From positions 1,382,469-1,446,468 of the forward strand of contig NZ_JAATIT010000001.1 of NCBI RefSeq assembly GCF_011926545.1: a stretch of DNA of 64,000 nucleotides, written 5' to 3'. Source of the DNA: Sphingopyxis italica (GTDB taxonomy: Bacteria; Pseudomonadota; Alphaproteobacteria; Sphingomonadales; Sphingomonadaceae). Below, in pieces: positions 35,136 to 38,795 of this stretch (within the stretch, counting starts at the first letter, position 1; every line of letters begins with the position of its first letter). The notes below the pieces were generated by a model. That model saw only the letters and a list, made by a program, of their open reading frames with translations. It searched no databases and had not been told where the DNA came from. Position numbers and translations under genes: made by a program.

Positions 35136-35447
35136 TCAGCGCACTCCTTCGGTGATGTCGATCGACTGGCCTTCGGCCAGACGAACGATCGCCTTCTTCA
35201 CGTCGCTGCGGGTGTAGGGCTTGCCCTTCCAGCGCTTGGTCTTGCCCTTGGTGATCAGCGTGTTGACGCTCAATACCTTGACATCGAACAGCGCCTCGAC
35301 GGCGGCCTTGATGGCGGGCTTGGTCGCGTCGTTCGCGACCTTGAACACCACCGCGTCATTTTCGCTGAGCAGCGTCGACTTTTCGGTGATCACCGGAGCG
35401 AGGATCACGTCATAGTGACGCGCGTCGATGGTTTTTGCCTTAGCCAT
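35136..35447 (-). CDS. rplW: 50S ribosomal protein L23
   Basis: A 103-residue exit-site protein that docks trigger factor and [25 protein letters not shown] and [27 protein letters not shown] are typical. It overlaps the end of rplD by eight bases. Confidence 0.97.
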
Positions 35448-36066
35448 TGCAGCGGGCCTCCAGCTGTTCGACCGCCGCGCGGGTCAGGACCAGCGTGTCG
35501 GCACGGATGATGTCATAGACATTGGCACCGATGGCGGGCAGCGCGTCGACACCGATGAGGTTGGCCGAAGCCATTGCGAAGCTTTCGTGCACCGCGTCAC
35601 CGTCGATGAAGAGGGCGCGATTGCCGAGTTCGAGCTTGCCGAGCTTGCCGGCCAGCGCCTTGGTCTTCGCGTCCTTGAGCTCGAGCGTGTCGATGACGAC
35701 GAGCTTGCCGCCCTTCGCCTTGTCGCTCAAGGCCATCTTCAGGCCGAGGGTGCGGATCTTCTTGTTCAGCGAGTGGCCGAAGGTGCGGGCACGGGGGCCA
35801 TGCGCCTTACCACCACCGATGAAGATCGGCGCCTTGCGATCGCCGTGACGTGCGGTACCGCCGCCCTTCTGACGACCGAACTTCTTGCCGGTGCGCGACA
35901 CGTCGCTGCGTTCGCGGGCGGCACGAGCCGGACCACGGCGCTTTTCGAGCTGCCAGGCCACGACGCGATGCAGGATGTCGGCGCGGGCGTCGACACCGAA
36001 GACGTCGTCGTTGAGATCGATGTCGGTGCCGGCTTTGCCGTCGAGGGTCTGAACCTTGACCTTCAT
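35440..36066 (-). CDS. rplD: 50S ribosomal protein L4
   Basis: A 208-residue exit-tunnel protein. The tunnel loop around [23 protein letters not shown] is intact. In E. coli L4 also represses its own (S10) operon by binding the leader RNA; here the only large structured leader precedes rplC, two genes upstream. It overlaps rplW. Confidence 0.97.
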
Positions 36067-36068
36067 GA

Positions 36069-36842
36069 TCAGGACTCCTGTGCGCCGTCGGTGGCCGCGG
36101 TGTCGACGACGGTTTCTTCGACCGGCGTTTCGACCGGCGCGTCAGCCGGGGCATCGTTGGTGTTGGCCGCGCTCTTGACGCCCGCCGGATAGGGGGCCTC
36201 CGGGTGGCGGGGCAGCTTCACCGCATCGCGGACGAGCAACCAGCCGCCCTTCGAACCAGGGACCGAGCCCTTGACGAAGAGAAGGCCGCGCTCGACGTCG
36301 GTGCGGACGATTTCGAGATTCTGCTGGGTGCGGTTGCGCGCGCCCATGTGGCCGGCCATCTTCTTGTTCTTGAAGACGCGGCCCGGATCCTGGCGGTTAC
36401 CGGTCGAACCATGCGCACGGTGGCTGATCGAAACACCGTGGGTCGCGCGCATGCCGCCGAAACCCCAGCGCTTCATCGCACCGGCAAAGCCCTTACCCTG
36501 GGTCACGCCCTGGATGTCGACGATCTGGCCGGCGACGAAGTGGTCGGCCGACAGTTCGGCGCCGACGTCGAGCGCCGCGTCGTCGGCGACGCGGAATTCG
36601 ACGAGCTTCGCCTTGGGCTCGACTTCGGCCTTGCCATAGGCGCCGCGCTGCGGCTTGGCGACGTTCTTCGCCTTGGCCGAACCGGCACCGAGTTGAACGG
36701 CCACATAGCCGTCACGTTCTTTATCGCGCACGGAGACGACCTGGCAGCCTTCGAGGCTCAGGACGGTGACGGGCACGTGGCGGCCGTCGTCCTGAAACAG
36801 GCGGGTCATCCCCATTTTCTTCGCGATCACGCCAGTACGCAT
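36069..36842 (-). CDS. rplC: 50S ribosomal protein L3 with C-terminal extension
   Basis: A 257-residue early-assembly protein of the 50S subunit. The start is [41 protein letters not shown] near residues 127-151 is the conserved core facing the peptidyl-transferase centre. Residues from about 217 onward form an acidic Pro/Ala/Val/Thr tail ending in DGAQES, absent in E. coli. The ATG at 36842 follows GAGGAG seven bases upstream. It is preceded by a 299-nt structured spacer. Confidence 0.97.
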
Positions 36843-37141
36843 GATCATACTCCTCAACAGAGGCCGGGCGGACCATTCCGCACGGCTTGCGGGACCCATC
36901 AAGGCGTTGCCCCAATGGAACCCTCCCAGCCCAAAATTTCGATACATCGCCCCGTCCGGGCTGAGGTGCCGCCATCCCGAAGGAGAAGCGGCGAGACGGG
37001 GGACGCAGCCCGGTCGTAATGGCTTCCGGAGAAACCGACCGGCGGTATCCACCCTATCGTCGGTCCGGATCGCTCCGGACGATGCAGGCGGCGAACCGCC
37101 TGCCGATAGAGACCCCGGTTTTCACCGGGGCTTCGCTGGCC
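36843..37141 (-). promoter_or_regulatory. Structured RNA in the rpsJ-rplC spacer (candidate r-protein leader)
   Basis: On the transcribed (minus) strand the gap folds as follows. The rpsJ stop codon sits in the loop of a 7-bp hairpin (37135-37151). A 7-bp stem with GAAA loop is at 37113-37130. A closing helix ctatcg/cgatag (37104-37109 with 37054-37059) encloses two hairpins: caggcgg-TTCG-ccgcctg (37085-37102) and gtccgga-GCGA-tccggac (37063-37080). A further helix ccccgtc/gacgggg (36950-36956 with 36995-37001) encloses a gccgc/gcggc stem. No T-run follows any stem, so this is not a plain terminator. Pairing was read by eye. Confidence 0.6.
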
Positions 37142-37453
37142 TTAGGCCAGCTTGATCTCAACGTTCACGCCCGCGGCGAGATCGAGCTTCATCAGCGCGT
37201 CGACCGTCTGCGGGGTGGGCTGCACGATGTCGAGCAGCCGCTTGTGGGTGCGCACCTCGAACTGCTCGCGCGACTTTTTGTCGACATGCGGGCCGCGGTT
37301 CACGGTGAATTTTTCAATACGCGTCGGAAGCGGGATCGGGCCGCGAATAAGCGCTCCGGTACGACGTGCCGTATCGGCAATGTCGGTGGTGGCCTGATCG
37401 AGCACGCGGTGATCAAAGGCCTTCAGGCGAATGCGAATATTCTGCGTTTCCAT
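37142..37453 (-). CDS. rpsJ: 30S ribosomal protein S10
   Basis: A 103-residue protein that also serves as NusE in antitermination. [31 protein letters not shown] and [29 protein letters not shown] match the family. It starts the S10 group but is separated from tuf by 148 bp with a strong hairpin, and from rplC by a 299-bp structured region. Confidence 0.98.
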
Positions 37454-37555
37454 GACTATTCCAGTCGAATCCCGTCTAACGATGCGAAAGAGCCGAAATG
37501 GCCTGCTCCGATTTCCGCGTGGAAACCGGATCGGCCATCAAAATTCTTTAAGCTA

Positions 37556-37591
37556 CGAGCCGCGCGAATCAGTTCCGAATCGCGCGGCTCG
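37556..37591 (-). terminator. Strong hairpin after tuf
   Basis: A perfect 12-bp stem, cgagccgcgcga/tcgcgcggctcg, with a 12-nt loop starts about ten bases after the tuf stop. On the minus strand it is followed by the AT-rich stretch tagcttaaagaattttg. It probably ends or attenuates str-operon transcription before rpsJ. Confidence 0.6.
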
Positions 37592-37601
37592 CGGCCCTAT
37601 A

Positions 37602-38795
37602 TTACTTTGTGACGGTTGCCACAACCCCTGCGCCGACCGTGCGGCCACCTTCGCGAATTGCGAAGCGGAGACCCGGGTCCATGGCGATCGGAGCGATCAG
37701 CTTGACCGACAGCTGGACGTTGTCGCCCGGCATGACCATCTCGGTGCCCTCGGGGAGGATGACCTCACCGGTGACGTCGGTGGTGCGGAAGTAGAACTGC
37801 GGACGATAGTTCGCGAAGAACGGCGTGTGACGGCCGCCTTCGTCCTTCGACAGGACGTACACTTCCGAGGTGAACTCGGTGTGCGGCGTGATCGAGCCGG
37901 GCTTCGCCAGAACCTGGCCACGCTCGACTTCTTCACGGCCGACGCCGCGGATCAGCGCACCGACGTTGTCGCCAGCCTGACCCTGGTCGAGCAGCTTGCG
38001 GAACATTTCGACGCCGGTGACGACGGTCTTCTTGGTGTCCTTGATGCCGACGATTTCGACTTCTTCACCCACCTTGACGACGCCGGTTTCGATACGGCCG
38101 GTCACGACGGTACCGCGACCCGAGATCGAGAACACGTCTTCGATCGGCATCAGGAAGGGCTTGTCGAGCGGACGTTCCGGCTGCGGGATCCACGCATCGA
38201 CGGCCGCCATCAGCTTCAGGATCGCGTCCTTGCCGATGTTGTCGTCGCGACCTTCGAGGGCGGCGAGAGCCGAACCCGGAATGATCGGGATATTGTCGCC
38301 GTCGAAGTCGCGCTTCGAAAGTTCTTCGCGGATTTCGAGCTCGACGAGTTCGAGCAGTTCGGGATCGTCGAGCTGGTCGACCTTGTTGAGGAAGACGACC
38401 ATCGTCGGAACGCCGACCTGCTTCGCGAGCAGGATGTGCTCCTTCGTCTGCGGCATCGGGCCGTCAGCGGCCGACACGACGAGGATCGCGCCGTCCATCT
38501 GGGCGGCACCGGTGATCATGTTCTTCACATAGTCGGCGTGGCCCGGGCAATCGACATGCGCATAGTGGCGGCCGTCGGTTTCATATTCGACGTGGGCGGT
38601 CGAAATGGTGATGCCGCGCTCGCGCTCTTCGGGCGCCTTGTCGATGTTCGCGAAGTCGACGGCCGCGTTACCCGCGACGTTTTCCGCGAGGATCTTGGTG
38701 ATCGCTGCGGTCAGCGAGGTCTTGCCATGGTCGACGTGACCGATGGTGCCGATGTTGCAGTGCGGCTTCGTCCGCTCAAATTTAGCCTTGGCCAT
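37602..38795 (-). CDS. tuf: Elongation factor Tu
   Basis: A 397-residue GTPase that delivers aminoacyl-tRNA. The G1 motif GHVDHGKTS (19-27), G3 DCPGHAD, G4 NKVD near 136 and G5 SAL are all present. It follows fusA with a 152-bp spacer holding two related hairpins. It is the only tuf copy in the window. Confidence 0.98.

Follow-up and report, generated by a model that had tools for sequence, protein, structure and literature searches.

A doubly pseudoknotted RNA between rpsJ and rplC in Sphingomonadaceae, probably a leader of the downstream ribosomal protein genes

The DNA analysed here (the window) is a 64,000-nucleotide stretch of the genome of Sphingopyxis italica (RefSeq assembly GCF_011926545.1, contig NZ_JAATIT010000001.1, positions 1,382,469 to 1,446,468 of the forward strand), and coordinates are counted from its first letter. 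Its minus strand carries the gene row tuf, rpsJ, rplC, rplD, rplW, rplB. Few bacterial gene arrangements are as conserved as the str-S10 cluster; its control, to our knowledge, is poorly known outside E. coli and a few other organisms. A preliminary description of this DNA had pointed to a gap of 299 nt between rpsJ and rplC and had proposed that it holds an undescribed structured RNA. The gap (36843-37141) is indeed there, with rpsJ ending at 37142 and rplC starting at 36842 on the minus strand. The genes and ribosome-binding signal around it are as follows.

37142..37453, minus strand: rpsJ, encoding ribosomal protein S10 (NusE), the gene 5' of the gap (open reading frame and translation)
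36850..36854, minus strand: Shine-Dalgarno sequence AGGAG of rplC (sequence)
36069..36842, minus strand: rplC, encoding ribosomal protein L3, the first gene 3' of the gap (open reading frame; ATG at 36840-36842)
35440-36066, minus strand: rplD, encoding L4, next after rplC (open reading frame)

The rpsJ-rplC gap spans 275-323 nt in 30 Sphingopyxis loci and 50-383 nt in 80 loci representing one genus each of Sphingomonadaceae, being at least 160 nt long in 71 of them and short in nine (the start codon of one locus, L059, was wrongly set, and its true gap is shorter). GTDB's Sphingomonadaceae, the family meant throughout, takes in the erythrobacters. One further genus, L144, has a gap of 37 nt, and 28 loci from seven other families of the order have gaps of 2-27 nt. 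The enlarged gap is thus a family trait: within the fused str-S10 cluster, it is found only in Sphingomonadaceae among the loci compared. A search with rpsJ retrieved S10 homologues from 156 of 159 family genomes. A scan of 36500-37700, of little power, showed no sigma-70-like promoter (0.3 expected by chance).

An alignment of 30 sequences from 30 genera (A2) was turned into a covariance model of 156 positions (R1), which placed the element at 36840-37053 of the window with 94.5 bits in cmsearch and matched all 81 core-sized family spacers submitted, with E-values from 1e-43 to 1e-6 after a shortened calibration. Ten short spacers were kept out of that run; of the nine scored separately, L035 gave E 1.6e-4 and L073 E 0.009, and seven had no match at E<=0.1. 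The conserved core is composed of the following parts.

36927..37051, minus strand: conserved core (R1, cmsearch, and covariation on 81 sequences)
37048-37044, minus strand: invariant AUACC box (core alignment)
37051-37048/37003-37000, minus strand: helix P1, its outermost pair a U-C mismatch in the window
37042-37038/37014-37010, minus strand: hairpin P1a
37007-37004/36946-36943, minus strand: helix P5, outside the R1 model
36999-36995/36956-36952, minus strand: helix P2 (covariation)
36992-36987/36973-36968, minus strand: hairpin P2a
36963-36958/36932-36927, minus strand: helix P3, outside the R1 model

Along the RNA, the first half consists of the 5' strand of P1 with the box (G[A/G][A/G]AUACC), P1a, the 5' strand of P5 (UGCGU type) and the 3' strand of P1 (UCCC type); the second half runs from the 5' strand of P2 (CCGUC) through P2a and the 5' strand of P3 (CAGCCC) to the 3' strands of P2 (GACGG), P5 (ACGCA) and P3 (GGGCUG). 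P1 therefore crosses P5, and P3 crosses both P2 and P5, giving two pseudoknots. AUACC is present in all 81 aligned core sequences. The helices named in the preliminary description can all be read in the letters, and its ccccgtc/gacgggg helix was correctly seen and corresponds to P2; the pseudoknots and the conserved 3' hairpin had been overlooked.

Seven helices, including the two pseudoknots, are backed by covariation. Across the 81-row alignment, 93.8% of cells are paired, against 78.4% in shuffled alignments and 33-49% when strands are slid; both partners have changed in 427 cells, compared with 113.7 in shuffled alignments. The alignment was fitted to P1, P1a, P2, P2a and P4, so the pairing figures of these helices lean towards the structure. 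P3, absent from the model, is paired in 98.7% of cells (94.8% at its outer pair), and three of its pairs have changed on both sides. P5, likewise absent, is less regular: it is paired in 84.2% of cells in fixed columns, its first pair is unformed in 25 of 74 cells, and its mean duplex energy is -4.46 kcal/mol against -3.57 with partners permuted (sd 0.14; 79 rows). In P1, pairs 4-34 and 5-33 switch between G-C and A-U at least six and at least four separate times, respectively, on the protein tree, with 76 of 76 rows paired at each; the outermost pair is unformed in 12 of 69 cells, the window included, and formed in 56 of 64 tree rows. L064 and L053, misaligned by the model, were excluded from the P5 permutation and from the P1 switch counts, as were rows outside the tree from the latter. 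Mean identity to the window over 29 Sphingopyxis loci is 0.874 in the core against 0.850 at fourfold rplC sites, with the core ahead in 21 of the 29, and 0.767 in the domain 5' of the core; since the core barely exceeds the fourfold sites, sequence conservation is not the main argument.

Folding energy by itself proves little, since both strands fold unusually low. Folded alone, the spacer reaches -156 kcal/mol on the transcribed strand, where shuffled sequences average -133.4 (z -4.18), and the opposite strand has z -3.29, with 0 of 200 shuffles as low in either case. Minimum-energy folds were rejected as the structure because they do not reproduce the covarying helices, as was an alternative helix, ccgggcug (37013-37006) with cagcccgg (36963-36956), which by eye is lost in genera with other letters there.

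Between the core and rplC lie two further elements.

36891..36923, minus strand: hairpin without a U-run at the place where relatives have a terminator (sequence)
36858..36890, minus strand: P4 module, CANGC - variable stem - GCCUCUG (motif counts)

P4 adjoins the rplC Shine-Dalgarno sequence throughout the family, basal members without a core included, and occurs in 80 of 80 one-per-genus family loci. A loose form of the pattern is found in 88 of 88 family rows, all ten short rows among them. In 75 of 80 genera the exact GCCTCTG is found near the rplC start; the other five are L059, with its wrong start, and four that are one letter off. Of 82 rows examined, 81 contain CCTCT, and 80 of these have it 19-25 nt ahead of the start codon. 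None of the 28 outgroup spacers, whose length leaves no room for a hairpin, contains CCTCTG. L061, a short row with a 99-nt spacer, bears two P4/GCCUCUG modules in tandem and no pseudoknot core, which suggests that P4 acts as an independent module. No second P4-regulated gene was found in the window's genome: the pattern GCCTCTGN{1,7}GGAG matches it twice, once here and once with neither rpsJ nor rplC nearby, and the reversed-pattern controls gave three matches.

Behind P3 follows P4 directly, a terminator and then P4, or another insert, which in the window is the hairpin without a U-run. In 20 of the 81 sequences with a core, P3 is followed after 0-2 nt by an intrinsic terminator; the other 61, the window included, have none there. 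The remark in the preliminary description that no T-run supports simple termination thus holds for the window, but not for these 20 relatives, which carry a terminator at the matching place. The count comes from a scan of the aligned core that returned 22 of 81, two of which, L126 and L058, were removed on inspection because their hairpin lies before the 3' strand of P3; the T-run of the L055 terminator is interrupted. A first scan (31 of 83 rows) was discarded, having picked up unrelated hairpins. By eye, P3 and the terminator touch and hardly overlap, which gives no clear sign of a mutually exclusive switch. Separately, L054, L067, L102 and L110 have a strong hairpin with a nearby T-run close behind the rpsJ stop codon, possibly a second attenuation point.

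The part of the spacer next to rpsJ is more narrowly distributed.

37054..37151, minus strand: 5' domain (alignment A4, pair counts)
37151-37135, minus strand: stop-codon hairpin, its first strand inside rpsJ
37131-37112, minus strand: GAAA-loop stem (A4)
37109-37104/37059-37054, minus strand: closing helix of a three-way junction, with arms at 37103-37084 and 37080-37063

Counted over 25 loci with the domain (24 distinct), 95.3% of cells in A4 are paired, against 28-41% in slid controls. Of the GAAA-capped stem and three-way junction proposed in the preliminary description, two stems, together with the stop-codon hairpin, gained support from compensatory changes, which occur in three stems, the closing helix and last arm (37080-37063) having none, and the domain is limited to a Sphingopyxis subclade. 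The proposed closing helix ctatcg/cgatag is present in the letters and never varies, so it yields evidence neither way; the GCGA-capped arm is also present, lacks compensatory changes and is missing in 5 of 24. The 5' three-way junction is thus specific to Sphingopyxis, and one of its arms is dispensable. Five Sphingopyxis loci (L026-L030) have an unrelated insert, perhaps a dispersed repeat, in the first ~120 nt after rpsJ, where it replaces the junction with hairpins of the tccggacttgatccgg and cctgctttcgcagg types.

Locus by locus, the rpsJ-rplC spacer contains the core in all 30 Sphingopyxis loci and in 71 of the 80 family loci that represent one genus each. BLASTN with the spacer matched 32 of 60 genomes, all of them among the 36 of the same genus (its own included), and 0 of the 24 from other families. 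In searches with R1, run for order, class and phylum with stricter filters that lose weak matches, the core was found in 129 of 136 family genomes (training genera included) and in 1 of 61 others, at E 0.003, among 197 genomes of the order, where 47 unlisted misses were taken as non-family from list order. The 129 are counts of presence, position having been read at the 30 Sphingopyxis and 80 genus loci. Searches of the class (289 genomes) gave six matches, five in the family and one at E 0.004, and of the phylum (397 genomes) 21, of which 20 are in the family and one is false. All but one of the 129 family genomes have a single match above threshold, and in the window's own genome the rpsJ-rplC spacer is the sole match. 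The three matches outside the family were judged to be chance: G447 (E 0.004) and G779 (E 1.4e-5) lie on stretches (L166 and L293) with no rpsJ, rplC or AUACC box, the score of G779 coming mostly from a hairpin with a Shine-Dalgarno sequence, and that of G231 (E 0.003) is on a contig other than its rpsJ contig. One conserved string, looked up in named genomes, occurs in at least 119 stretches; the titles of the 80 listed name sphingomonads or erythrobacters, apart from a few broad ones such as Proteobacteria or Alphaproteobacteria bacterium.

On a quick tree of S10 and L3 (116 rows by 254 columns, with 50 of its 112 inner branches open), the family is set apart from the others with 97% SH-aLRT, and the short rows with P4 only are its first branches, at forks of 86-92%. 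The history of the core takes two changes on this tree, one gain and one loss (L035, which retains an apparent degenerate remnant), and that of the terminator takes 11. The element seems to have been assembled stepwise inside one bacterial family, with the steps readable across living genera: no gap, then a hairpin at the ribosome site, then a pseudoknotted core, with terminators that come and go. It offers a natural series for how a regulatory RNA is built and for whether feedback by ribosomal proteins can shift its site.

The proposal of an undescribed structured RNA is supported by the covariation, by the phylogenetic distribution and by the lack of an Rfam match. The whole window has no match at gathering threshold in Rfam 15, and a permissive scan of 36700-37700 gave nine sub-threshold matches, the best at E 0.8. 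No description of an rpsJ-rplC element was found in a search of the main texts of open-access journal articles; none appears in the available text of PMC7247131, PMC2704228, PMC2965389, PMC11109978, PMC5725501, PMC5770649 or PMC7566282, and the terms looked up do not occur in the available portions of PMC6429828 and PMC2864571. This RNA adds a knotted family with covariation data from some seventy genera.

The E. coli S10 leader combines a hairpin at the ribosome site with a terminator hairpin. The sphingomonad element resembles this leader, the L4 leader of the S10 operon, in preceding rplC-rplD and the following genes and in having ribosome-site and terminator hairpins in some genera, and differs from it in lying 3' rather than 5' of rpsJ, in being pseudoknotted and in having been found in one family only. 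In the E. coli system, L4 binds the 5' UTR before the S10 gene, according to the accessible part of PMC2704228. The Archaeoglobi L4 and Alphaproteobacteria L2 r-leaders (Eckert and Weinberg 2020, PMC7247131) are likewise candidates from comparative genomics, before rplC and rplB; they belong to another lineage or gene and are set apart here by their descriptions in the text available. Table 1 of that paper, in the accessible version, lists no bacterial rplC leader. The rpsJ motif of Peptostreptococcaceae is also a structured RNA linked to rpsJ, but precedes that gene and belongs to Clostridia (PMC11109978, accessible text), and the rpsB motif of Alphaproteobacteria and others is also a pseudoknotted leader of a ribosomal protein gene, with another gene and architecture (PMC2704228, same part).

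We propose, with a probability of roughly 0.6, that the element is a cis-acting leader RNA, carried in the fused str-S10 transcript, through which the rplC operon is expressed at a level of its own, separate from rpsJ; it probably controls the output of the ribosomal proteins downstream. It stands consistently directly upstream of ribosomal protein genes, on the same strand, and has a secondary structure supported by covariation, two marks of an r-protein leader. In such a mechanism, rpsJ and rplC would share one transcript, and a ligand bound by the core, by P4 or by both would lower initiation at rplC by crowding the ribosome site; in genera with a terminator it would also shift read-through. 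The likeliest ligand would be a ribosomal protein of the downstream operon acting in negative feedback, L4 by precedent or L3 by adjacency, as the preliminary description had also inferred, and one of the two probably feeds back on the RNA. Applied here, the r-leader reasoning in the accessible text of PMC7247131 favours a prior ligand (L4) or the product of the closest gene (L3).

The core could instead be the aptamer of a riboswitch for a small molecule or ion, a metabolite tied to growth state, acting through the terminator or the ribosome site. An invariant box around two interlocked pseudoknots is an aptamer-like layout, and the terminators close behind P3 would suit such a device. Known riboswitches, however, usually recur before several genes, whereas this RNA occurs once in nearly every genome that has it and in one family only, and operons of ribosomal proteins are classically controlled by their own proteins; we consider a riboswitch unlikely. 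A fuller version, in which a double-pseudoknot aptamer, added once in Sphingomonadaceae to a ribosome-site hairpin that was already there, responds to a small signal of growth state, is equally doubtful; if true, a riboswitch would govern a core ribosomal operon and uncouple it from rpsJ/NusE.

An element for processing or stability, at which cleavage would part the str transcript ending in rpsJ from rplC and protect the 5' end of the rplC mRNA, fits the insertion exactly at a gene boundary in Sphingomonadaceae only, the stable hairpins, and the hairpin and T-run close behind rpsJ in some genera. Mere protection, though, needs neither conserved pseudoknots nor an invariant box, and the near-fixed distance from P4 to the start codon points to initiation, so this too seems improbable. 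Release of a trans-acting small RNA from the spacer is very unlikely: the element is conserved, compact and unique in the window's genome, yet its most widely kept part is P4, next to the rplC Shine-Dalgarno sequence, and no promoter-like site was seen in the spacer by the low-powered scan. Coding, as an N-terminal extension of L3 or a small open reading frame, is refuted as a general explanation, since, although the frame 36069-37052 is open through the core in the window, in 48 of the 72 box-bearing family rows an in-frame stop separates the box from the start codon, box-to-start distances are spread evenly over the three frames (28, 23, 21), and the changes compensate for pairing.

The spacer on the other side of rpsJ bears on the leader reading as well. 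NusE, the product of rpsJ, is a boxA-binding partner, and the tuf-rpsJ spacer (37454-37601) contains one further feature.

37486-37493, minus strand: boxA-like GCUCUUUC, shortly before rpsJ

Of 80 family genera, 70 have a boxA-like GCUCUUU in the last 130 nt ahead of rpsJ; none of the 28 outgroup loci has one there. Possibly, by analogy, it serves autoregulation by S10/NusE; putative boxA sites before rpsJ in three genera, and a proposal that genes for Nus factors regulate themselves, are found in the available part of PMC5725501. Together with a leader before rplC, the site suggests separate control of rpsJ/NusE and of the rplC operon in this family, one lineage having inserted new control in the middle of the str-S10 cluster. 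The tuf-rpsJ gap itself is also mostly longer in the family, at 82-328 nt in the 79 of 80 loci that could be resolved and 66 nt in L144, against 29-86 nt in 27 of the 28 outgroup loci, those resolved; several family loci (e.g. L041, L068, L075, L085, L109) cluster near 307-328 nt, which suggests a further insert.

Mimicry of ribosomal RNA was also considered. GATACCGCC, which we take to be a string of E. coli helix 89, suggested a link between the AUACC box and 23S rRNA, and was set aside as the 23S rRNA of the window's genome differs at the matching site. GATACC and the P4 pattern are absent from the readable part of the genome's own rRNA stretch (L168), a comparison that is incomplete rather than negative, since 5000 of its 7101 bases are N. 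CCTCTG occurs twice in the readable part, with about 0.5 expected. One copy is located ~230 nt past the matched 23S site and has the letters that are conserved in P4; presumably it is near helix 96, in the neighbourhood where L3 binds. A hexamer is too short to serve as evidence, yet it is a lead.
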